This document shows, in pieces, positions 7,421 to 56,048 of a stretch of 64,000 bases of DNA. The first letter of the stretch is position 1; every line of letters starts with the position of its first letter. Made by a program: the position numbers and the translations under genes. Origin of the DNA: Panicum virgatum (taxonomy: Eukaryota; Streptophyta; Magnoliopsida; Poales; Poaceae); NCBI RefSeq assembly GCF_016808335.1, contig NC_053139.1:16052782-16116781 (forward strand). The letters are read 5' to 3'. Under the pieces are notes generated by a model. The model saw only the letters and a program-made list of their open reading frames with translations, was not told the DNA's origin and searched no databases.

Positions 7421-7966
7421 ACCCTTCCCACTAAAAGAAATCTTGTCCCGAGATTTTGGTGGAGGTGCCAAAATTGAAAAGAGAGCGACATGGTTAGGTA
7501 CCTCGATGAGCTTATAGCAACTCAGGATATTTGGATTGAATAAATTCCTCCATCTCCCAAGTAGCTTCTCGCTCGGAGTGATTACTCCACTGAACCTTAT
7601 AGAAACTGCTGATTTGATTCCGGGTAACTGGGTCTTGTGGTCAACAATTTTAGCTGGATGCTCTGGATAAACAAGATCGGGCTCCAACTGTAAATTTTCC
7701 ATATCAATAATCTCAGTTGGAGCACGGAGGCACTTCTTGAGCTGGGAGACATGAAAAATATTATGAACTGCCGATAGATGTGAAGGAAGTTCCACTCGAT
7801 ATGCTACCGGCCCACATTGCTCAATAATAGGGAAAGGTCCAATATACCGAGGTGCCAATTTCCCTCTCACCCCAAATTGTTGAACACCCCTCATTGGGGA
7901 TACCCACAGATAAACATGATCACCAACTTGAACACCCCTCATTGGGGATACCCACAGATAAACAAG
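7421..7966 (-). pseudogene. Element B pol, C-terminal integrase end
   Basis: Minus-strand reading gives the end of a Ty3/gypsy integrase: GDHVYLWVSPMRGV, KLAPRYIGPFPI, VFHVSQLKKCLR-like and PAKIVD, leading into the chromodomain-like tail. The tail (EATWEMEEFIQS) is in a different frame from the preceding part, so there is a frameshift near 7560-7600. A 48-bp period duplication (7882-7966) repeats the VSPMRGVQ segment. The reading frame is cut at 7966 by element A, and the rest of this integrase resumes at 21458. Confidence 0.8.
7882..7966. repeat. 48-bp tandem duplication in B integrase
   Basis: A GAACACCCCTCATTGGGGAT unit with its following ACCCACAGATAAACA occurs at 7882 and again at 7930. 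The second copy runs straight into the truncated LTR of element A, so the duplication lies exactly at the junction and may have formed during the rearrangement. Confidence 0.8.
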
Positions 7967-8133: not shown

Positions 8134-9333
8134 CTACTAAACTATCCCCAAGGACGGGATAGGTTCACGTCACCATCCGTATGCAAGCTTTAAGAGGATG
8201 CATTATGGTATAAAAAATAGACAACGGATAAGGCTAGAGTTTCCTATGCGTAGCATCAACAAAGTATAGCATCTGCCAAGTCACCTGACGCGGGCCATTT
8301 CGGCATCCCGGACTCCCGGTCAACTTACACCTCCGAGACTCACCCAAGTCCCTGATAACCAAGTCGGTGCAAGAACTCCCTCTCCTCGCACCTCAGCTGC
8401 TATCCAAGCAGGAAGGTAGGCTAGAGGGAAGAAGAAAAGTATCAAGGCACACTAACTAATGGAAGTAACAGAAGAGTAGGAATGTACATGACCGAGTACA
8501 TGGCTATACATATAGTTTTCACCCTGCAGGGGTTGTACACCTGTACCCACTCGAATCACTTCCAGCCGGAGGCCAGCCGACTGACATCGAGACACCGGTC
8601 TACTGAGAACAAGAACTAGCTGCCATGGCACCATCCTGCTTTCCCAGGTTTGGGCACGTTCTCTCGCAAGAGGTCGCCCCGGGACTGTGAGGCCATCTAG
8701 AATAGGATTCCCATCAATCCCGCGAATCGGGGAACGCCAGGTCCACACCTGCTCCACCTACACCGATACTACATCCGCCAACAGGCTTGGCACCACGCTT
8801 ACTAGCCTCGGACCGGTTCCACCCGCATAGTGGATAAGTGGTGTGCACGCTCACAAAGTCCCACTAATCATAGTTACACCAACCGGTTCCTTATATACCA
8901 GGGCAAGCATCTCCGTCCTCATGCGTATCCGCCACAGCGGTCCGCGACTGGCACCCATTACAGGTAAGGCCCAGAAAACACCTCAAAAGTCCAACCGTGT
9001 CCAACGACACAAACATGCACCCGCAACAGGTGCTCGTAGGGTGTGCCCAACACACACCCCCAGCAAAGTCAACTTGCTCGCCCCCTGCTAAAAGCCCTAG
9101 TCACCAACACCTGATATGGTGGATCTCCACACACACCAAGACTATCATATCACGAGGAAATCCCACACATACACATGCAAGCATATCAACCATTCAAACA
9201 TGGTTTATGTTAGGAGTTCAAGGAATAAGGGCACACAATTGGCTATGCAGGTTCATCTCATAACAGTAATAAAGCGATAGCAGTTCTAGCAAGCAATGCC
9301 TAATAGGTATTCAAATCATAGATGGGCGTCAAC

Positions 9334-9444
9334 CTGAGACTTCTCATAGTCGTCCTAGGTCTTCAGAGTCTTCTCGTTGTCCGGGACTTCCTCCTGGGTC
9401 CTCTGGGCATCCGGGGCGTTGATCAGCTCCTCCTCGCTAAGGGC
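9334..9444 (-). other. Acidic exon-like block in A 3' LTR
   Basis: Between an AATAG acceptor-like site and a CAG/GTTGAC donor-like site the frame encodes EEELINAPDAQRTQEEVPDN and DDYEKSQ. One TAG codon (LKT-stop-DDY) is shared with the other LTR copy at 18752-18862, so it predates this insertion. Composition and position resemble the internal exons of LTR families B, D and E, but the phase is 0 rather than 1. Confidence 0.35.
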
Positions 9445-9714
9445 CTATTCGTAATTACGAATTACTAAGGGGGCCAAAGTGCAAAAGTACACAAAAGTAT
9501 CCAAATAAGATCCAAATCACACCAAAACCTATTCTAACGGGTAGATCATGATTTTAGAAAAATTATGAAACGGGTTTCATAATTTTCGGAGCTCCGGTTA
9601 ATTTATTATCGATTTTCGAAGCCTAAATCTATTTCTGAAATTAACAAGTGATTTTCGAAAAAAAGAAAAACACACAGGGCCGACACGTGGCAGGACGGGA
9701 GAGTGCCACGTGTC

Positions 9715-9860
9715 CTGTTGACGTCACCATGACGTCAGCACAGGGTCGGTTGCTGCTGATGTCAGCGGGGTCAAAGCTGACGTCAGCGTTGACTGGTCAA
9801 CGTTGACCGGTCAACGTTGACCATTGACCGGTCAACGTTGACTAGTCAACAGTCAACATC
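9715..9860. repeat. GTTGACC/GGTCAAC and TGACGTCA repeat block in A 3' LTR
   Basis: Alternating GTTGAC and GTCAAC cores (GTTGACCGGTCAAC palindromes) follow three ACGT-core motifs (GACGTCACCATGACGTCAGC). The right LTR (about 19135-19235) keeps the ACGT motifs but only a short part of the GTTGAC array, so the array has expanded or contracted since insertion. TTGAC is the core of the WRKY-binding W-box and TGACGTCA is a bZIP site. Function here is inference. Confidence 0.7.
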
Positions 9861-11230
9861 CAGGTCAGCGGGGTCCACGTGTCGGTGGCCCCACCTGTCA
9901 GCCACTCACTAGAGGATGACATGTGGGACCCGCGGGTTAAAAAGGTTACCAGAAAAGAAAAAGAAAAAGGGAACCATGGTTATTGGGCTAAAAAACCACG
10001 GGTTGGCTCGGCTTGGCCCATGAGGGGTTCGGCTTGGCTCAAAGGACTGGCTCCATCTGCGGCTCACGGGCCGGCTTGGCTACTGGGCTCGGCTCGGCTT
10101 GGCGGGCCAAAGCAAGGCCACGGCCCAACGGCTCCTTCTCCCTCCCTCCCTCTCTTACAGGCTGGGCCCGCGGGGCAGTTCTCTCTCTCCCACCACTGAC
10201 AAGCGGGACTCGCCCATCAGCGGGAGCAGGATCGGGTGTGGCGCGGCGGCGATCTGGTGCGGGTCTCGTGCGTGTGGCCATTTGCGAGGCAGGGTGTGTG
10301 CAGGAAAGGTCAAGGCGTCGTCCAGGTGTTCGACGGTATGCTGCGGTGGATCGGCAATGGCACGCGCGTGGCGTTGCTGCGTCGGCCGCGGTGGTCGTGC
10401 ACAGCGAGGCCAGGGTGCAACGGCGGCTGTGGGGAGGCAAGGCGGAACTGGGCCAGGCACGGGCGTGCGCGCGGCGGTGTGTGCGCGCCGAATGCGACAC
10501 ACCATCGCAGTGGTGTGTGCCGGCCAAGAGGGAGTGGCTCAAGCCTGGGCGGTGTGCGCGTGTGCGTCGGGCATAGCCACAGTGTGGCGATGGTGTAGCG
10601 CAGGCATGCCCAAGAGGCGGCGTGCAGGGTCAGATGCGCGGCCGGGTCGCACGTATGCGTATGCCCAGCACGGCCACAGTGAGACCGTGGCGCGGCGAGG
10701 TAGTGGCGACAGCGTTACCGAGAAGGCTATGTGCTACGGCGACGCTCGATGTCGGCTCCTGAAGAGACGGAGGACGGGGACCCTAGGGCACGCTAAGGGA
10801 TGGCTCATTGGCGGCAAAGGCGGCCGGACAGCACACAGGGAAGGGCGAGGTCTGAGCGGTGGCGGCCTACCGAACTGGGTCGAGGAAGACAATGGCGAAG
10901 CAGGGTCGAGTCACGGCCGTGGAGCGTTGGTGAGGTGCCGTGCAGCTCACGAGCGTCGAGGTTGTCGTACAGGGCGCTGAACCACGTGGTGGAGGTCTGC
11001 GGCGGCGGTGCGGCATTGTCCTCTAGCGACCGCGACGGCGACGGCGACGGCGTCGTCCTCCTAGGCCTCCTTCTTGGCGTGCTCAGGTCCGGCTCCTCCT
11101 CTCCATCTCCCTCTTCCCTTCTCCCCCACTCTCTCTTCCCTTGCTCCCTCCTCTGTTTCTTGGTGGCTGTGGTGGCGGAAAGGGAAAAGTACCCCGCGGT
11201 GGCTCCAGGGTTTGGCTGCGGCTGTCCGGG

Positions 11231-24331: not shown

Positions 24332-24991
24332 TGTAACACCCTAATTTAAATTTCAGCAATTTATTAATAAATTTAATTGGCTTTACTTAAATTTCTAAGG
24401 TTTATTGTGTTAGACTTGCATTTAATCTAAATTTTGTTGCTTAAGTAATTAAAATTTTACCATAGGTTTAAATTTTGGTGTTGCATTCATGCTGGTGCAT
24501 AGTTTTAATTATTTGAGTGTGGTTCGAATTCAAATTCTGATTTGAATTCAAACTTTGTTTGAAGTAGAATTAGAAAAGAGGGGTATAAAGGAAATAGGGC
24601 CCAAACCCAAAACAGCCCAAAATCGCGAGATCCAGCCCAACCCGGCCGGCCCAGCTCGCTACCCCGCTCCTTTCCCCGCGGGCCCACTTCGGCCCAGCTC
24701 GCGCCGCGGCCCGAACTCCACCTCAGCCTGGCCCGCGTCCCGCTCCGGCCCAGCTCAGCAGCCAGCGCAGCCCACGCGCGCGCCCTCCTCCCTCCGTTCA
24801 GCCCGCTCGGCCTGCCAGCGCGCGCCCGCTCTCCCCAGTCAGCCCGCGCCTCGCCCTCCTCACTGACGGGCCGACCCCACGCGTCGGGGTCATCTTCTTC
24901 CACCCCGCCGCGCAACTGAACGCCGAGATCCCCGCCTGGGATCTCGCCGGCCTTCCAAACCGGGCACGCACGCCTAAGATGGCCGCCGCCC

Positions 24992-25000
24992 TATAAGTAG
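24992..25000 (+). promoter_or_regulatory. Probable TATA box of solo LTR D1
   Basis: TATAAGTAG follows a GC-rich stretch, about 660 bp from the LTR start, and precedes a C-rich leader. This is the best promoter candidate in the D LTR. D2 and D3 have weaker A/T boxes at the matching place. Confidence 0.5.
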
Positions 25001-26330
25001 CGCCCCCGCGGACCCCCTACTCCCCACCTCGCCTCGCAATCGCCGCCAGAACCCAACGTTACCCCACCTCGCCGAGCTCCGCCGCGCAGGGCTCTGCACC
25101 GCCGTGAAATCCACCGCCAAACTGCATCCCAGCTCCTGCGGATCCCCGCAGAAGATCCACCGTGACGCCAAGGAGCTTCCTAAGCCGGCCACGCCCCAAT
25201 TCTCGGACTGCAGCACCGGAATCGCGCAGAGCTTCCCAACCCCGGTAAACTCCGATCTCTGGCCATTTGCGCATCCCCGGCGATCCCCGGACCCCCCTGA
25301 CCGTTGTACATCTCCGCAGGAACCCCACGCATTGATTCGTGAAGCCTGGGACGCCCGAGGACCCTCTGCTTCGCCTCCTTCACGAGCCCGTAACGACCTC
25401 GCCGCCGGTCCTCGTCGCCGGCCACCCTACGCCGCTCCCTCGCCCGATCCAGGCCCACGGTGAGCGCCCCCAAGGCCCGCCGTACTTTTTGCGCTAGCCG
25501 CTTTAGTCTATAGCGCACCCAGAGGCGCGTGAGCGTGCGTGCCGTGGAGCACCACCGCGCAAACCCGCCGCCGTCCATGCTGGCGCCGCCCCGAGCCTCC
25601 CCGAGCGCCGTTTAGAGCCCAGGTGAATCACGCATAGCGTATTGGCCATCCCAGACCCTAAGCCGCGTCGAATTAGGCCCTGGAACGCCGGTTTCGCCTA
25701 CTCCGGTGACCCCTCCGCCGCGGGAACCCTGTTTCCGGCGAGCCGCGCCGCCGCTCCGCGCTCCCTTAACCCTGGGCCGCCCGATCTGGAGGCGATGGCC
25801 CAGATTAGATCGCATCCCCGCTAGATCTGAACCGTCAGATCGCGATCCAACGGACCTGAATCAAAGATACCGTTTCGGCTGACAATCTTTCTAAAGAGCC
25901 CCTCCTTTTGTTAGAAATCAACCCGCAGTCCTGTGCCTTTCAAAAATAATTACAGATTAGGCCTGTTTTATTCACTTAGGTCCCTGAGCTTCCTGGATTT
26001 TGAACCCGCCGTCCAACACTTGACTTTTTGCGAGTTAGACCCTGGAGTTAATGTTTATTTACGTTTTAGCCCTCGGTTTTAGCAGAAAAGTCCCTGGAAC
26101 TTCAGTTTTCTTGCAAATAAGCCCCTGAACATTGTTTTAGGCCTAGTTTATGCGTTTTAGCTCCGATTTTAGCGTTCTTTTTGTCCACGCGATCGTTGTA
26201 ACGCGTAGAATAGTTTTAGACTAGTTTAATGTGCTGTTTTTATGTATTGATGTACTGTTTCTTAGTTTTTGCTAGTGTTTGCTTGTATGCTTATTATTGT
26301 GCATTGTTTTGGCCATGTGTTCGTGAGTAG

Positions 26331-26420
26331 ACGTTGATCCATCTGAGGAGCCCCAGTACCAGTACCAAGAGCAGCCGTCTTCCGAGCACTTTGAGCAGCA
26401 GCCAGAGCAGTACGAGGAAG
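26331..26420 (+). other. Conserved internal exon-like block, LTR D1
   Basis: Bounded by GTGAGTAG (acceptor) and AAG/GCAAGT (strong GC-type donor). The open phase gives VDPSEEPQYQYQEQPSS, then EHFEQQPEQYEE, without stops. Two bases enter and one base leaves, so both junctions are phase 1. The same 90-bp block occurs at 38139-38228 (D2) and 51909-51998 (D3) with CAG to TAG changes. It is analogous to blocks in LTR E (45987-46115) and LTR B (33059-33190). Confidence 0.55.
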
Positions 26421-27472
26421 GCAAGTGTAACATGAACAACCTATCACTTTTAAATACATTTTCATACTGCATTTTAATACTGTATGCCTATAAGGACATT
26501 CCTAGCCACTTTATATCCTTTATATATACCTTTGGGTTGCATTTTGGTTAGTTGTGCTAGGTTGCCGCGCTATAACACACTTTGGTCCTTTTTAATTAAT
26601 TTGATTAATGGTTTATGCAACTTAATTCTGGGAGTGGCCCTCTGTGCTTCGTGCTTGGGTGGCTCACGTCCCGTTAAAATATGTTTGATAGAAACAGGTT
26701 TAGGGAGCCAGCACGGTGCTTACTGCCTGGTTGGCTACTCTCCATAAGGACCGGTTCATAGAGCGACAACCTGGGACAACAGTGCTACCACAAGGCTAGA
26801 ATGGGATAGACTTGGCGTAATAATTAGGTCTTTTTGGTTTGGAGTAACTTACCTGCGGGGCAGGGGCGGTAAGCTTCTATGGCCCTCGTGCTGAGTGGCC
26901 TCGTCTGTGCTTGGTCTGCGTACCTGTGTCTTGACGCCCACTAGACCTGCTCCATGGTCGCCGATCCACCCTCGCGGTTACTCCTTACCAACAAGATTCT
27001 TTGTAAAGGCCTCGTAGTGAGTCGCTAGCCATCTCACCTAAGGAAGTGTGATGAACAACTGGCGTAGCTCACGACTTGTGGGTAAAGATGTGCAACCTCT
27101 GCAGAGTGTAAAACTGGTATACCAGCCGTGCTCACGGTTATGAGCGGCCCAGATCCTCCTTTTGATTAGTGGGGTTGTCTCCTTCCGACGAGGGAGGTGC
27201 CTCTCGGGGTTACCTTGGTGGCTTGGTTTCGGTTTGGTTCTCAGTAGTAACATGTTTAATCTTGATTAATTACTATGTAACTGGGTTAAGGGTAATTCAT
27301 CAACTTGTAGTAAATAGCTTTAATAAAATTTTGCCAAGACTTAAAAGCTAATGCAGTCAGTTAGCCAACCTTAGAGCCTCATAGTTTGTGTTATACTTGT
27401 TGAGTACAAGTTGTGTACTCACTCTTGCCTCTTCTCTACTTTTTCCTCTTGGGATACGCTACTGCTGCTCAG

Positions 27473-27528
27473 TTCCTGCCGACACGAGGGAGTTCGTCTA
27501 GCGCTACCAGGACTACGAGGACTTCTAG
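27473..27528 (+). other. Terminal exon-like block, LTR D1
   Basis: After a CTGCTGCTCAG acceptor, two entry bases and then PADTREFV-stop-RYQDYEDF followed by TAG. The internal TAG replaces the CAG seen in D2 and D3. Joined to the 26331 block through a 1052-bp GC-AG intron, the frame stays in phase. AATAAA lies 111 bp downstream. Confidence 0.5.
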
Positions 27529-27787
27529 GTGTTCGTCTCCCAGTCGACGTCCCTGTGGCGCCCTGCTTCAGTTTCGGAGAGCTTTTTATCGTATTTTGTA
27601 CTTCGCTTCCGCTGTATCAGACATTTTGTCATTATTGTAATAAATAACATTCGTATTTCGATTTATTAATGTCTTATTCGTGATATGTGCTATGATATAC
27701 TATTCATTCTGTTGTATATACGTGTGACTTGATCCTGGCACGTATATGATTGCTCGGTTTATGTCCTTTTATAAACCGGGTGTTACA

Positions 27788-35198: not shown

Positions 35199-38138
35199 TG
35201 TTGGCACCTACCAACGTCACCACTGAGCGAGCAGCGATGACGCCCGCAGACGCCAAGGGAGTGGCTGGTATTTCATGAACCACGAATAAATCTGCAAGCG
35301 CACGGAATACCGCTGTAGCATTTTACTCGGGAGTATACTGGGGTGTCATTTATATTTCCACAGGGAAGGTGGCGAATGGAAGTACATAAGCTAGTTAATG
35401 AACTGATCTAGATTGGATATTTAGTTGCATAAATTTGGGTAAGATAGATAACATGGTAGGAGGTACTGTGACACACACACAAACTGCCCTCAGAGATAAA
35501 TATATAAAAGATGCTATAGGCAGGGAGAAAGGCAGAAGTTAGAGCTCGAGTCAGTTGTGCTAGGTTAGCTATATCTATGCTATCGTATGGTTAGATTGTT
35601 AAAGATTTTACTAGAACAACAGGGAGACCGCTCCTCTAGCTAACGGGAGACGCCCGTTCACCTAGGCAGCTTTATGTACCTCCTACCCCCAATCCAATTA
35701 TGGAGGATTACTAGGGCTCGGACAGGGCTGTCACCACCTGCCGGCTACCTCACAATCCGTGGAAAAGGGTGGCAATACTTATCTAGTCTAGACACCATGT
35801 CTACATTAGTAAGCGGTACTCTATGTAACACCCTAATTTAATTTTCCTAGTTAATAATAAATTTAATTAGCTTTATTTAATTTTCTAGGATTTAATTTGC
35901 TTAGCCCTGCATTTATAATTTATTTTTGCTTCGTAAAGTAATTAAAATTTATTTTAGGGCTAACATGTTTGTGCATTCATGCTGGAGCATTGTTTTATTT
36001 GTTTGAGTGGTTAAGGTTTTGAATTCAAATTTGATTTGAATTCAAATAGATTTGAGTTTGAAAACCAGAAAAGAAATAGAAAAGGATTAGGAAAATCCAG
36101 GAAGAGATGAAACCCATAGCAAAACCCAGAACACCACCCAGTCGGCCCGTTCTTTTTCTTCCCCCGCACCGGCCCACTCACCCACCCCACGCGGCCCACA
36201 CTCCCGCGCTCAACCCAACGCCCACTCCCTCCAGTTCCTTTTCCGCAGGCCCAGCTAAGCCGGCCCAGCCCGTTCCTCTCCACGCGCTGCGTTTCCTCCG
36301 GTTCCCAGCACTGCAACGCCCTTCCCAGCCCACGTACGCGCGCGCTCCCGCTGCCAACATGGCCCCACACGTCAGTCATGCCTTACCCGCTCAGCCGCGC
36401 AGCGCCGCGTCCCGCACTCGCTCGTTTCCCTCGCTGACAGCCTCTGCCCGCACGTTGCACGGCCGAGCGTGCAGCACACCCGACCGGCTTGGGCCCGCAC
36501 AACAGTCTCCTCCCGCAGACGTGCACCCCGCACCCCGCTCCCTGGGCCCGCCTGCCTGTGGCACGGTTTTGCCCGCGCATTCCCTTCTCCGGGCCGCAGG
36601 CCCACAAGTCAGCCTCACGCCCTGCTCACCCCGCAAGCCAGCCGCTCCACCCGCACGCCACACGCGCGTCGCCCGCGGACTTCCCCCGTCCCGCTGCCAC
36701 ACCGGGCCCGCATGTCAGCTCCCCCGTCCTCCTCGCACCTGCGCTCAACAGCCTCCCGAATCATGGCCGTGATCCTCGCCGTGATTTCCCCTGCCCATCC
36801 CGCACGCCGAGATCTCGGCCAGCTTCTTTTAACCCAGCCCCGGGCCTCCCCTACGCTGCACACGCCCTCCTCTCGCAGCCCCAAACCGAGCCGCAGCCAC
36901 CCCGCAACCTCGGCGCCCGGAGCAGAGCCCCGCGCCGCCGCGGCCACGCCGCTCCGCCGCACCGGAGCCCCGGACAAACCGCGCAGGAGCATCGCCGTGG
37001 GACCAGCGACTTCCCCGAGCCCGCTGCCCTCCGCTCCGACCTCGGCATCGACCTCGTCACCAAGCTCCGCCGTGCGCCGCCACAGGATCTCGTCGCTGGC
37101 GCCGCCACATCACCTCCCAGTCCGATTCCATGCCCAGTGAGCACCGCCCAGACCTCCTCTTCCTTTTTCGCACGCACCTGTAGACAGTAGGCCCCTCAGT
37201 TGGCCGGGCAATGCACGCCGGCGTTCCGCCGCCGCCGCTCCGCCGTGGTCACACCTCTGCAGCGCAGCACAACCCCGCCCGAGCCCCGTTTCGCCTTGAC
37301 TGTGCACCGTGCATGCGCACCCAACCGTTTGCCACCGTTCCTATGTCCAGAGCAGCGCGAACGCGTGATCGCCGTCGAGTTCGACGCCACATATCTGCCA
37401 CCGCTTGTACCCGCGCCGCCCTGAACCCCGCCGGTCCCTGCTGTAGCCCCAGGTGAGTTACGCACACCATGTAGATCATCCCTGACCCAAAATCCCGGCC
37501 AATTTGACCCCGGAGCATCGAATTCGATGAAGTCTGGTGAAGTTCGGCACCCCGCCGCCGCGGAGGATGAGCTCCGGCGACCAGCGCCGCCGCCCCCGCG
37601 TCCCCTTAGACCCGATCCGTCCGATCTTAGATCAACGGCCCAGATCTGATCGGCCCGAAGTCAACTAACCCAAATAACGGTCAGCGCCTGGAATCTTGCA
37701 AAAGAACCCCTTTGTTTTCCTAGAATTAACCCGCAGTCCATCAGTGTTCAAAACTAATTCCAGTTAGGTCCTGTTTTTATCGTTTTGGCCCCTGAGTTTT
37801 CCCAAATTAGTACCCGCCGTCCAGCCTTGATGTTTTTACGTGTTAGACCCTAGATCTAATTGATAATTACATTTAGGCCCTCGGTTTTTGCAGAAAACCC
37901 CCAGAAACTTAGTTTTTCTTGCAGAAAAGGCCCTAGAACTTGTTTTTAGCCTAGATTATGCGTTTTAGCTCCGTTTTGGGCGTTCTTTATGCCCACGCGA
38001 TCGTTGTAACACTTAGAATAGTTTTAGACAAGTTTAATGGGCTGTTTTTATGTATTGATGTACTGTTTCTTAGTTTTTATTAGTGTTTGCTTGTATGTTT
38101 ATTATTGTGCATTGTTTTGGCCATGTGATCGTGAGTAG

Positions 38139-38228
38139 ACGTTGATCCATCCAAGGAGACCCAGTATCAGTACCCGGAGCAGCCGTCTTCTGACCACTTT
38201 GAGCAGTAGCAGGAGCAGTACGAGGAAG
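38139..38228 (+). other. Internal exon-like block, LTR D2
   Basis: Same 90-bp length, acceptor GTGAGTAG and donor AAG/GCAAGT as D1. Reads VDPSKETQYQYPEQPSS, then DHFEQ-stop-QEQYEE. The stop is TAG in place of CAG. Confidence 0.5.
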
Positions 38229-39248
38229 GCAAGTATAACATGAACAACCTATCACTTTTAAATACACTTTCATACTACATTTTAATACTGTATGCCTATA
38301 AGGACTTTCCTAGCCACTTTATATCCTTTATATATATTCCCTTGGGTTGCATTTTGGTTAGTTGTGCTAGGTGCCGCGCTATAACACACTTGGTCCTTGT
38401 AAATTAATTCGATTAATGGTATATGCAACTTAATTCTGAGAGTGGCACGTTGGAGGGGCTCAAGTCTCATTTAAAATTGGTTTTGTTAGAAACATGGTTT
38501 AGGGGACCAGCACGGTGCTTACTGCCTGGTTGGCCACTCTCCATAAGGACCGGTTCATAGAGCGACAACCTGGGACAACAGCGCTACCACAAGACTGGAA
38601 TGGGACGGTCTTGGCTTACTAATTAGTCCATTTTGGTTCGGGAGTAACTTACCGACGGGGCAAGAGGGGAGTCGAACCTCAATGGTGCCCAGGCTACGAG
38701 GCTTGGTGTGCGTACCCCTCGAGGTGGGTACCATCGATGCATTGACTGAATCCTTAGCGGTTACACCTTACCAACGTGTCCTTTGTAACGGCCTTGTAGT
38801 GAGTCGCTAGTCATCTCACCTAAGGAAGTGTGATCAACAACTAGCGTAGCTCACGACTTGTGGGTAAAGATGTGCAACCTCTGCAGAGTGTAAAACTGGT
38901 ATACTAGCCGTGCTCACGGTTATGAGCGGCCCAGATCCTCCTTTTGATTAGTGGGGTTAGCTCCTTCCGACGAGGGAGTGCCTCTCGGGGTTACCTTGGT
39001 GGCTTTGGTATGGTTCTCAGTAGTAACATGGTTAATCTTGATTAATTACTATGTAACTGGGTTAATGGTAATTCATCAACTTGTAGTAAATAGCTTTAAT
39101 AAAATCTTGCCAACACTTAAAAGCTAATGCAGTTGAGTCAGCCAACCTTAGAGCCTCATAGTTTGTGTTATACTTGTTGAGTACAAGTTGTGTACTCACT
39201 CTTGCCTCTTCTCTACTTTTTCCTTTTGGATACTCTACTGCTGCTCAG

Positions 39249-39304
39249 TTCCTGCCGACGCGAGGGAGTTCGCTCAGCGCTACCAGGACTACGAGGACTT
39301 CTAG
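39249..39304 (+). other. Terminal exon-like block, LTR D2
   Basis: Two entry bases, then PADAREFAQRYQDYEDF and TAG, intact. The acceptor is TGCTGCTCAG as in D1 and D3. Confidence 0.5.
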
Positions 39305-39952
39305 GTGTTCGTCTCCCAGTCGACGTCCCTGTGGCGCCCTGCTCAGCTTCGGAGAGCTTTTATCGTATTTTGTACTTCGCTTCCGCTGTATCAGCCATTT
39401 TGTCATTAATGTAATAAATAACATTCGTATTTCGATTTATTAAGTCTTATTCGTGATATGTGCTGTGATATACTGTTCATTCTGTTGTATATACGTGTGA
39501 CTTGATCCTGGCACGTATATGATTGCTCGGTTTATGTCCTTTTATAAACCAGGTGTTATACTCTAGCATCCCACACGGAGCCCCCACCCTCCAGATGGAC
39601 AGACATCATACTAGAGCAAACATACAAATACTGGAACAGTTGACAGAGTTCTAAGGCCAATATGTTAACCATCGCAAGCATAGGGCGATCATGCAATGCA
39701 AGCATTGAATGATAACACAACCAGATCACGATGCATAAATCTGATAACTTAGAACATACTTCAAGCAAATATCGGTAACTATAGTCTAATTCTATTACAA
39801 ACAACCGAATATTATAAGAGAGGACTAGAGATGAACCCATACCAGAACTCCCGAGCAACTCCGGGGACTCGATGACTCCTAGACTTCTCCTAAACTCCAC
39901 TAGGCCTATAGACTAAGCAAGAAGGCACTTAAGGTAAGTGAGGTGAGGTGTG

Positions 39953-49856: not shown

Positions 49857-51908
49857 TGTAACACCCTAATTTAAATTTCGGCAGTTAATAATAAATTTAT
49901 TTGGCTTTATTTAAATTTCTAAGGTTTATTGTGTTTAGTATGGCATTTAATTCAATTTTGTTCCATTAAGTATTTAAAATTTTGTCTAAGGTTAAAACTT
50001 TGTTGTTGCATTCATGCTGGTGCATGTTTTTATTTGAGTGTGGTTTGAATTCAAATTTTGATTTGAATTCAAACTTTGTTTGAAGTAGAAATAGAAAAGA
50101 GAAAGGAAAATAGAAAAGGAAAGGAACCCAAAACCCAACCCAACAACCCAAACCCAGCCCAAACCACCTTCCCAAGCCCAGCCCAGCACTCAGCCTGGCC
50201 CGCTCCCTTTCCCGCTTAGCAGGCCCGCTCGCCCTCTCCTCCGCTGGCCTAGGCCGTCTCGGCTCCGCTCGGTCCAGCCCAGAGCGCAACACCTCCACCA
50301 GCCCAGCGCCCGCGTACTTCGGCCCAGTCCTGCGCCGCGCGGCCCGCTCACCCTGCTCGGCCTGCAGCCGTGCTCGCTCCGCCCCGCGCGCTGCACCCAC
50401 TGCCAGCCGGGCCCGCAAGCCAGCGCGCCCGCTCTCACCCGCCTGCCACCGGGCCCCGCTTGCCAGGTCCTCCTTCCTCCTCCCGCATCCCCCGCGCGCT
50501 CAACGAAAACCGCCGCAGATCTCGCCGAGATCACGCCCTGGGCACGCACGCCCAAATCCCCGGGCTCGTGCCTTCTTAAACACCCTATCCACCCCCAGGT
50601 ACCCCAATCCGCATCCCGCCGCCTCCCCACAAACCCTAGCCGCCGCCTCCCTTTGCTCCGCTGCACAGAGGCTCTGCTCCGCCGCACTCACACCACCCCG
50701 CTGCCTCTCCACCCCGAAAGATCCTCGCAGGAGCACCGCCGTGCACCCAGGGGGCTTCCCAAGCTCTCTGCCCCGGAGCCCAGGCCCCACCTCGCCGGAA
50801 TCACGCCCTAAACGATCAACGGTGAGTTGCGCCGCCCGCCCAATTCTCTCACCGCCGTCGACTCTAGTGCCTAATTGACCCCTGGAACACTTCCACAGGA
50901 CCTTCGCGGGCCGGATCATGAGTTCTAGGAGCCGGAGACACCCTGCAGCGGCCCTCCTTCGAGCTCCGTCCGTGCGCCTCCGCCTGAGCTCGCCGCCGGC
51001 TCGTCTGCGTCGCGCCCCGTCCGATTCCACGCCCGGTGAGCCTCGCCCGCACCCCCTCTTCCTATTGCACGAGTTGTCGTAGCCCGTAGGCCACCCTCGC
51101 GGCATGAACACGCTCGCCGGCGCTGTTCCACCGCCGCCGAGCCACCCCTGTCGGTGAGACTCCCTCTCCCAGCCCCGCAACGCCCCGCTTTACACCTTAG
51201 TGGTTTGCGCTACCGCGTGCATGCTTCCCGGCCCATCCCTAGCTCAAACCCACCCCCGGAGCGCCGGATGGGCGAACTCCGGCGGCTCCGCGGCCGCGCG
51301 CCGCCGCGCTCCGTGAGCAGCGCCGCCGCCCCGCGCGCCCAAACCCCCCCAGCCACCCGATCCGAAAGCGACGGCCTAGATTAGATCTAGGACCAAGCCA
51401 CCCTGAGCCGTCGGATCAAGATCCAAGCGCCCTGAATCAAAGATAACGGTTCGGCCTGTGTATTTTCCTTAAGAGCCCCTAAGGTTTTCCACAATCAACC
51501 CGCGGTCCAGCCTTAGTCAAAAATAATTACGTATAGGTCCTGTTTTTAATGTTTAGGCCCCTGCTCTTTCCGGAAATAGTGCCCGCCGTCCCTGTCCTCG
51601 TGTTTTTGCAAGTTAGACCCTAAAGCTTTAGTTTAATTATGTTTTAGCCCTCGGTTTTTGCAGAAAACCCCCTGGAACTTCAGTTTTCTTACAAATAAGC
51701 CCCTAGAACTTGTTTTTAGCCTAGAAAACGCGTTTTAGCTCCGTTTTTAGCGTTCTTTATATCCACGCGATCGTTGTAACGAGTAGAATAGTTTTAGCTT
51801 AGTTTTTCTTGCTGTTTTTATGTATTGGTGTATTGTTTCTTAGTTTTTGTTAGTGTTTGCTTGTATGCTTATTATCGTGCATTGTTTTGGCCATGTGTTC
51901 GTGAGTAG

Positions 51909-51998
51909 ACGTTGATCCATCTGAGGAGCCTCAGTACCAGTACCAGGAGCAGCCGTCTTCCGAGCACTTTGAGTAGCAGTAGGAGCAGTACGAGGAAG
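51909..51998 (+). other. Internal exon-like block, LTR D3
   Basis: 90 bp, same borders as D1. Reads VDPSEEPQYQYQEQPSS, then EHFE-stop-Q-stop-EQYEE. Both stops are TAG where D1 or D2 has CAG. Confidence 0.5.
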
Positions 51999-53044
51999 GC
52001 AAGTATAACATGAACAACCTATCATCTTTAAATACAAATTCATACTGCATTTTAATACTGTATGTCTATAAGGATTTCCTAGCCACTTTATATCCTTTAT
52101 ATATATCCTTGGGTTGCATTTTGGGTTAGTTGTGCTAGATTGCTACGCTATAACACACTCTGGTCCTTTTTAATTAATTTGACTAATGGTTTACTTGAAC
52201 TTAATTCTGAGAGTGGCCCTCTGTGTGGATGAGTGGCTCACGTCTCGTTAAAAGATGGTTTTTATAGAAACATGGTTTAGGGGGCCAGCACGGTGCTTAG
52301 TGCTTGGTTGGCCACTCTCCATAAGGACCGGTTCATAGAGCGACAACCTGGGACAACAGCGCTACCACAAGGCTAGAATGGGATAGACTTGGCGTAATAA
52401 TTAGATCTTTTTGATTTGAAGTAACTTACCTGCGGGGCAAGAGTAGTAAGCTTCAATGGTCCCTGTTCCTCCGGCTGGTCTGTGCTTGGATTGCGCTCCT
52501 GTGCTTGTACCCCCGTGAGGTGGGCCCCATCGTCGCTGACCTATCTCTCGCGGTTACGCCTTACCAACGAGATTCTTTGTAACGGCCTCGTAGTGAGTCG
52601 CTAGTCATCTCACCTAAGGAAGTGTGATGAACCCCTGGCGTAGCTCACGACTTGTGGGTAAAGATGTGCAACCTCTGCAGAGTGTAAAACTGGTATACTA
52701 GCCGTGCTCACGGTTATGAGCGGCCCAGATCCTCCTTTTGATTAGTGGAGTTATCTCCTTCCGACGAGGGAGGTGCTTCTCGGGGTTACCTTGGTTTGGT
52801 TTGGTTTGGTTCTCAGTAGTATCATGATTAAATTTGACTAATTACTATGTAACCGGGTTAATGGTAATTCATCAACTTGTAGTAAATAGTTTTAATAAAA
52901 ATTTTGCCAAGATTAAAAGCTAATGCAGTTGAGTCAGCCAACCTTAGAGCCTCATAGTTTGTGTTATACTTGTTGAGTACAAGTTGCGTACTCACTCTTG
53001 CCTCTTCTCTACTTTTTCCTCTTGGCTACGCTACTGCTGCTCAG

Positions 53045-53100
53045 TTCCTGCCGACTCGAGGGAGTTCGTCCAGCGCTACCAGGACTACGAGGACTTCTAG
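53045..53100 (+). other. Terminal exon-like block, LTR D3
   Basis: Two entry bases, then PADSREFVQRYQDYEDF and TAG, intact. Confidence 0.5.
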
Positions 53101-53360
53101 GTGCTTCGTCTCCCAGTCGACGTCCCTGTGGCGCCCTGCTTCAGCTTCGGAGAGCTTTATCGTATTTTTGTACTTCGCTTCCGCTGTATCAGACATTTTT
53201 TGTCATTATTGTAATAAATAACATTCGTATTCGCTTTATTATGTCTTTTTACGTGATATGTGCTTTGATATACTGTTCATTCTGTTGTATATACGTGTGA
53301 CTTGATCCTGGCACGTATATGATTGCTCGGTTTATGTTCTTTTATAAACCGGGTGTTACA

Positions 53361-55136: not shown

Positions 55137-55302
55137 GCCTGGTAATGTACCCTAAGTTTACGTACTTCACTATCCTGTTACAAGTACTCTAGTATCCGAG
55201 ACTGCTGTCTTTAGAGGTCCCGGGCTCCCTTATAGTATAAGGCTTGGTTTCTTGCACCTTACTTTGAGGTCCGGTGACATAATTCATCGGTTCGTCAGCA
55301 AC

Positions 55303-55770
55303 GACTCAAGTCCACTCCGGTGGCCCGCTCCGGCGGAGACCGCTCGCCACGGTCGACTCAAGTCCACTCCGGTGGCCCGCGCCGGCGGAGACCGCTCGCC
55401 ACGGTCGACTCAAGTCCACTCCGGTGGCCCGCTCCGGCGGAGACAGCTCGCCACAGTCGACTCAAGTCCACTCCAGTGGCCCGCTACGGCGGAGACCGCT
55501 CGCCACGGTCGACTCAAGTCCACTCCAGTGGCCCACTCCGGCGGAGACCGCTCGCCACGGTCGACTCAAGTCCACTCCGGTGGCCCGCTCCGGTGGAGAC
55601 CGCTCGCCACAGTCGACTCAAGTCCACTCCGGTGGCCCGTTCCAGCGGAGACCGCTCTCCACGGTCGACTCAAGTCCACTCCGGTGGCCCGCTCCGGCGT
55701 AGACCGCTCACCACGGTCGACTCAAGTCCACTCCGGTGGCCCGCTCCGGCGGAGACCACTCGCCACGGTC
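55303..55770. repeat. 52-bp tandem repeat, exactly nine copies
   Basis: Nine units beginning GACTCAAGTCCACTCCGGTG and ending GCTCGCCACGGTC; 9 x 52 = 468 bp. Units differ at one to three positions. Because 52 is not a multiple of 3, each plus-strand frame cycles through all three unit readings with a 52-residue super-period; all three frames happen to lack stops. This is noncoding 3' sequence of element F, not a protein repeat. Confidence 0.95.
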
Positions 55771-56048
55771 GCCAAAAGCTGGGTCCGGGAAGTGATGCTT
55801 GCTCCCTGAGCGATCCGAGGTCTGTGTAGCCGCTTAGCTTGGTTCCGTACCCTAAGCCTACACCTTCGTCGTCCTATGGAGGAGCGCTCTAGTACCAGAA
55901 CCTAGCAACAGGTGAACTGGCCTCAGGGGTCCGGAGCGCCCGTTCTTTGCATGAGCACACCAACGCAATCAAGCTTGCGTGGAAACACATCACGGTAGTG
56001 GCCCCACCCGCGGGTTCGTACCTCTCCCGAGGTAGGCCCAGGGGCCAC

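Follow-up and report, generated by a model that had tools for sequence, protein, structure and literature searches.

What can a solo LTR make on its own? Within the 64,000-nt stretch of Panicum virgatum DNA analysed here (the window), three solo LTRs, D1, D2 and D3, each carry a 90-nt block followed at a distance by a 56-nt block, and the original prediction read each pair as two exons of a small acidic protein, spliced and polyadenylated within the LTR. Most of the anatomy behind that reading was borne out. All three block pairs lie inside solo LTRs flanked by 5-bp target duplications and at the predicted positions (Table 1), and in each of them block 1 is bordered by the acceptor GTGAGTAG and the donor AAG/GCAAGT, while block 2 follows a second acceptor, TGCTGCTCAG, and ends in TAG. 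The predicted AATAAA is present inside the LTR about 110 bp downstream. The predicted TATA-like box needs more care: there is indeed a TATA box inside the LTR, the clear one lying much further upstream. The window also contains a tandem array with a 52-bp period at 55198-55882. The question is then whether these blocks encode a protein, belong to an RNA of another kind, or are not spliced at all.

The three LTRs belong to a family with TG...CA termini, a 5-bp TSD and a PBS adjoining the 5' LTR, as befits an LTR retrotransposon; the PBS is one that we take to match a tRNA. The family is very abundant: a search of 1.13 Gb of genome sequence in 627 contigs found 3284 matches to its LTR/PBS junction at no more than one mismatch, and none to the reversed-pattern control. 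Internal pieces of two copies, L009 and L012, contain matches to gag, aspartyl protease, RT (RVT_1) and RNase H, followed by integrase (Integrase_H2C2, rve), and integrase downstream of RT-RNase H is the Ty3/gypsy order; the match to Chromo was weak, 19.6 bits against a cut-off of 25.1. Domain matches, LTR ends and PBS together suggest a Tekay/Del-type element, the clade name Tekay being our assumption from the features of the LTR ends and the PBS. Gag-Pol ends about 40 bases upstream of the 3' LTR (five copies), and none of the five copies examined has, between pol and the 3' LTR, an additional ORF that could be joined to block 1 by splicing. An AG/GTATGC donor site is present within gag-pol in 9 of 11 copies. 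Three further copies, L014, L021 and L025, share the LTR and 5' leader of the family and differ in internal sequence from shortly before the gag position, and are possibly non-autonomous derivatives. In L009, oriented positions 1-1490 and 8511-10000 are internal stretches 99.9% identical that flank one LTR, suggesting a tandem LTR-internal-LTR arrangement.

The occurrence of the blocks was assessed in 60 copies sampled through the LTR/PBS junction, a choice blind to the blocks themselves; all of these copies are from contig C1, come from the first 100 listed of the 3284 junctions and match the junction pattern exactly. Block 1 was present in 54 of the 60 (36/40 in one sample and 18/20 in another, where one of the two misses, L079, is a short stretch beginning immediately after block 1), and 38 of the 40 copies searched for block 2 had it. 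Among the 54 copies with block 1, the acceptor GTGAGTAG is kept in 52 and the donor GCAAGT in 50, the acceptor having no strong pyrimidine tract. Since these near-invariant borders enclose a block whose body is variable, they favour exons with selected borders rather than selected codons.

The region upstream of block 1 was scanned for donor and acceptor motifs, without pre-selecting sites, in 20 full LTRs, namely D1-D3 and 17 loci retrieved through their resemblance to block 1 of D1 (from the 40 best block-1 matches listed, twenty 10-kb loci were taken; L016, where no LTR start was found, and L020 and L021, with broken or rearranged LTRs, were left out). The motif [AG]GT[AG]AG peaks at two distances upstream of block 1, about 845-905 nt (13/20 LTRs) and 1055-1100 nt (8/20), with a peak of branch-point/acceptor motifs between them (9/20). 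Away from the peaks and their flanks the donor motif occurs in at most 4 of the 20 LTRs per window, and in none in windows from 20 to about 590 nt, and no window of the reversed-motif control exceeds 5/20; stacks of LTRs anchored on a motif are, of course, circular for that motif. These peaks would define two additional exons, A and B, ahead of block 1, which becomes exon C, and block 2, which begins exon D (Table 1), so that the LTR anatomy is real in the sequences compared and wider than first reported. Donor b could be assigned in 18 LTRs, and acceptor a was identified by visual inspection in 12. In these 12 copies the length of exon B ranges from 137 to 149 nt, with all three classes modulo three represented, and exon B therefore does not qualify as a coding exon sharing the phase of block 1. 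A TATA-like box at D1's spacing to acceptor a is present in 4 of 13 copies examined. LTR identity, comparing D1, L028 and L009 with others, is 84-95% over the last 1-2 kb and 76-92% over the first 160-320 bp. Between these conserved LTR ends, at window 24570-26050 and in the corresponding region of other copies, lies a hypervariable, GC-rich promoter/leader segment that for the most part defies alignment.

Table 1. Features of the LTR unit and of the family; positions are those of the window unless stated otherwise.
Feature	Position	Strand	Remarks
Solo LTR D1	24332..27787	+	TSD ACTCT on both sides; termini TGTAACACCC...GGGTGTTACA; boundaries common to genomic copies; blocks 26331-26420, 27473-27528
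Solo LTR D2	35824..39560	+	TSD CTCTA; donor b 37137; blocks 38139-38228, 39249-39304
Solo LTR D3	49857..53360	+	TSD TTAAC; exon B 50899-51035; blocks 51909-51998, 53045-53100
TATA box (CCCTATAAGTAG)	24992..24997	+	putative TSS near 25022
Exon A	25022..25244	+	putative start; GC-rich, hypervariable, ATG-depleted across copies
Intron a	25245..25319	+	75 nt, read by eye; GTAAAC donor (D1), CTGAC resembling a branch point, CCGCAG acceptor
Exon B	25320..25459	+	140 nt in D1
Intron b	25460..26330	+	about 870 nt; donor CG/GTGAGC, acceptor GTGAGTAG
Exon C (block 1)	26331..26420	+	ATG-poor, CAG/GAG-rich
Intron c, GC-AG type	26421..27472	+	about 1050 nt; GCAAGT...CTGCTCAG
Exon D (block 2, continuing to the poly(A) region)	27473..27660	+	AATAAA 27639-27644; putative end
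gag intron in L009	~7435-7541 of the oriented copy		L009 on the reverse strand

Let us consider whether the frame that joins the two blocks is a coding one. It is interrupted in each of D1-D3. D1 carries a single in-frame TAG, in block 2, D2 likewise a single one, but in block 1, and D3 two, both of them in block 1; every one of these can be read as a CAG altered by a C-to-T change. Among 36 junction-sampled copies with both blocks, 22 are free of stops before the last codon, 11 contain stops and 3 are frameshifted, an 85-nt variant of block 1 being common to 3 of the 36; the terminal TAG is kept in every one of these copies whose frame is unshifted. These open copies and their final TAG are what one would expect if the two blocks coded for a small acidic protein, conceivably as a C-terminal tail joined by splicing to another start. 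On the other hand, in the 10 copies where block 1 is not 90 nt long, five lengths are multiples of three and five are not, and the 3-nt changes could come from slippage in the CAG repeats. Furthermore, the offset 0 frame of block 1 is even freer of stops, with none in the 18 sequences tested, and an open frame by itself is thus weak evidence.

Two measures of substitution lean toward coding for block 1. The pairwise dN/dS over 18 sequences (L039 and L045 were left out) is 0.365 for the block pair, 0.26 for block 1 and 0.91 for block 2, compared with a median of 0.86 and a 5th percentile of 0.48 for 60 overlapping windows of the intron. On the internal branches of a tree of 39 sequences, parsimony assigns 26 nonsynonymous and 20 synonymous changes to block 1, where 21.6 and 6.8 are expected; the terminal branches have 82 and 42 (42.1 and 19.2 expected). 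Block 2 on the same tree has no comparable shift. Pairwise ratios and tree counts thus hint at codon constraint in block 1, but both are measures that tally linked changes many times over. When variants shared among the 36 copies are counted once each, block 1 has 15 nonsynonymous, 10 synonymous and 2 stop variants (9.5, 4.3 and 1.9 expected), that is, 25 nonsynonymous and synonymous variants together against 13.8 expected, and the synonymous excess is significant neither in block 1 (P=0.23) nor in its offset 0 frame (P=0.47) nor in block 2 (P=0.92); with more copies of block 1 the corresponding values are 0.24, 0.23 and 0.92. The lower dN/dS foreseen for the blocks is therefore found in block 1 by pairwise comparison with the intron, but the shared variants give no significant synonymous excess in its support.

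The original prediction would also have the blocks change more slowly than neighbouring LTR sequence, and for block 1 the opposite was found, so that by this yardstick block 1 does not come out as coding. In the alignment of 36 copies (the 4 of 40 junction-sampled copies without block 1 being left out), block 1 has a pi of 0.117; the value for intron c is 0.084, and that for the 61 nt preceding block 1 is 0.087; block 2, at 0.067, stands between intron c and the sequence behind block 2 (0.059). In a smaller set of copies, from which L029, L035 and L047 were left out, block 1 likewise exceeds intron c in variability, and the 90 nt before block 1 are more variable still (pi 0.132, against 0.113 in block 1). 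Copies picked by their similarity to D1's block 1 have a pi of 0.027 in block 1 and 0.069 in the intron, the low value for the block being a consequence of that way of picking. One stretch of intron c, window 27080-27170, surpasses both exons in conservation, with a pi of about 0.01-0.03. Short folds of the conserved parts of intron c were unremarkable, and an RNA family search of the LTR returned one match, far below its gathering score.

Nor did a beginning for the protein come to light. No ATG leading into the joined frame was found upstream of block 1, and an upstream coding exon was considered and set aside: candidate ORFs exist before donor b, but exon B is not frame-kept. A database search with the joined frame gave 187 matches, and among the 120 listed none joins block 1 to block 2. 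All of these 120 are ORFs called on short contigs from ENA/JGI, their frames running past block 1 into intron c, and they do not make a protein family of the joined frame. We read them as ORFs favoured by TGA-to-TGG variants just upstream in combination with an open-frame filter. Taking these observations together, the protein reading of the blocks, a tail spliced from another start included, seems to us unlikely; most probably no peptide is made from the VDPSEEP...EDF frame. What survives of the predicted spliced coding unit is the unit, a probably spliced, multi-exon one with promoter-like and poly(A) signals, but not the protein, and for purposes of annotation the exon pair should not be labelled as a protein gene.

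Start codons are scarce in exons A-C. Over stretches at fixed distances in 18 LTRs, ATG occurs 4 times in exon A (17.7 expected) and 3 times in exon B (8.6 expected), and over 39 sequences, whose shared ancestry makes the count not an independent one, 3 times in exon C (17.7 expected). The reverse word CAT is nearer to expectation, with 29 against 38.4, 20 against 18.4 and 42 against 32.4 in exons A, B and C, respectively. No depletion of ATG is seen upstream of the putative transcription start (9 against 9.6), at the beginning of intron b (250 nt; 28 against 20.6) or in intron c (563 against 585). The depletion extends beyond the exons as well, since ATG is also low in intron a (3 against 9.2) and from the LTR start to position 600 (32 against 66.3), and from +250 to +500 of intron b both ATG (19 against 42.2) and CAT (34 against 56.5) are low. 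ATGs are scarce in exon D as far as about 27634; at 27635 there is one in 18 of 39 sequences. Beyond it, the U5 ATGs at 27685, 27746 and 27761 are invariant (39/39), several more lie in the internal 5' region before the gag ATG, and a CAG directly precedes the gag ATG. With these U5 and internal ATGs ahead of gag, a scanned leader would presumably need to be spliced on to gag.

That RNA of this family is spliced is indicated by gag. A 107-nt GT-AG intron, which splits the Retrotrans_gag (capsid) domain at profile position 58, is present in L009, L027 and L023 and missing to the base in L028 and L022. Allowing two mismatches, the genome contains 1610 intron-bearing acceptor junctions and 108 intronless ones (108 of the 1718 counted), and reversed-pattern controls gave 0. 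Copies without the intron most plausibly arose when spliced RNA was reverse transcribed, gain of the intron in the other copies being less likely, and splicing of the family RNA at the gag intron is the best explanation of the pattern. A corresponding retrocopy of the C-D junction was sought in the genome, and none was found above the control (one match, with three mismatches, and one for the control). Either RNA spliced within the LTR does not enter replication, or exons C and D are seldom, if ever, spliced together; RNA spliced from exon C or D to gag would have lost the PBS and is not expected to leave a retrocopy. The missing C-D retrocopy is what would be seen if the splice-like motifs were relics or chance, with no splicing of the LTR. 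Such an explanation, however, has to account for splice motifs kept at fixed distances within sequence that can hardly be aligned and for near-invariant borders on a variable exon, and we regard it as the least probable of those considered here.

We propose instead, with a confidence modestly above even, that the LTR carries a spliced, ATG-poor, untranslated 5' leader, in the order promoter, exon A, mini-intron, exon B, intron b, exon C, intron c, exon D and poly(A) signal. The exon borders, their fixed spacing, the depletion of ATG and the apparently retrocopied splicing of the gag intron support it in sequence; the transcription start, the use of the LTR junctions, the junction from exon C or D to gag and the role in translation are what we infer from these features. 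The leader might have been kept poor in ATG to let scanning ribosomes pass on to the start of gag. Reaching gag would require removal of the ATGs in U5 and in the internal 5' region, and the simplest route would be a predicted junction linking exon C or D with the CAG immediately ahead of the gag ATG. Such splicing would at the same time delete the primer-binding site, generating an mRNA for translation only, apart from the unspliced RNA used for replication. From a solo LTR, only a short non-coding spliced RNA could arise from such a unit. A related possibility, to which we give a smaller yet appreciable probability, is that the LTR unit makes this short non-coding spliced, polyadenylated RNA (A-B-C-D-poly(A)) and is not a leader for gag. 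The poly(A) signal directly behind exon D would fit such an RNA, as would the scarcity of ATGs in exon D up to about 27634 and the lack of a C-D retrocopy above control in replicated elements; the junction from exon C or D to gag is a predicted one. However, a leader scanned by ribosomes should show the depletion of ATG seen in exons A-C, which would be needless in a non-coding RNA.

The untranslated leader, if true, bears on the standing question of how one retrotransposon RNA serves both translation and reverse transcription: with U5 and the PBS deleted by splicing, only unspliced RNA could be copied. We put forward tentatively the broader scenario that LTR splicing splits translation from replication by joining a hypervariable promoter/leader cassette, its splice sites fixed, to gag, with solo LTRs acting as portable first-exon modules for neighbouring host genes. 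With thousands of LTR/PBS junctions, and splice signals in most of the sampled copies, the split would be testable in one plant, and solo LTRs equipped with promoter, exons and poly(A) signal would be ready-made alternative first exons for host genes.

Lastly, we compare this anatomy with systems described before. Among the papers listed in searches on LTR introns, gag introns and spliced LTR leaders in plants, no title or opening of an abstract presents such an anatomy, which is weak evidence for the novelty of the LTR-leader arrangement. The family resembles the Tekay/Del chromoviruses (names as in PMC6317226) in its order of Gag, PR, RT, RNase H and IN, and gave a weak chromodomain match; the available part of PMC6317226, which names Tekay and mentions the Ogre intron, does not describe LTR introns or a gag intron for this clade. 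According to the accessible portion of the review PMC12786077, plant LTR retrotransposons are generally without introns, Ogre and EVADE being exceptions; it also cites BARE1 for a spliced Gag RNA. The present family would be like Ogre (legume Ty3/gypsy) and EVADE (Arabidopsis copia) in having functional introns, but in those elements, as far as the parts of PMC12786077 and PMC6317226 at hand describe them, the introns lie within or between coding domains and not in the LTR. The closest parallel is perhaps BARE, with distinct RNA pools for translation and replication (PMC3735527, in part): the barley Ty1/copia element BARE1 produces a capped, spliced translation RNA apart from the replicated RNA, only part of its transcripts being spliced, and the scheme proposed here would be similar in that respect. 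Unlike the present family, BARE1 is a copia element whose intron, according to the same part of that source, is located where gag ends and gives rise to an mRNA for Gag only, whereas the family described here has three predicted introns inside the LTR and one inside gag.
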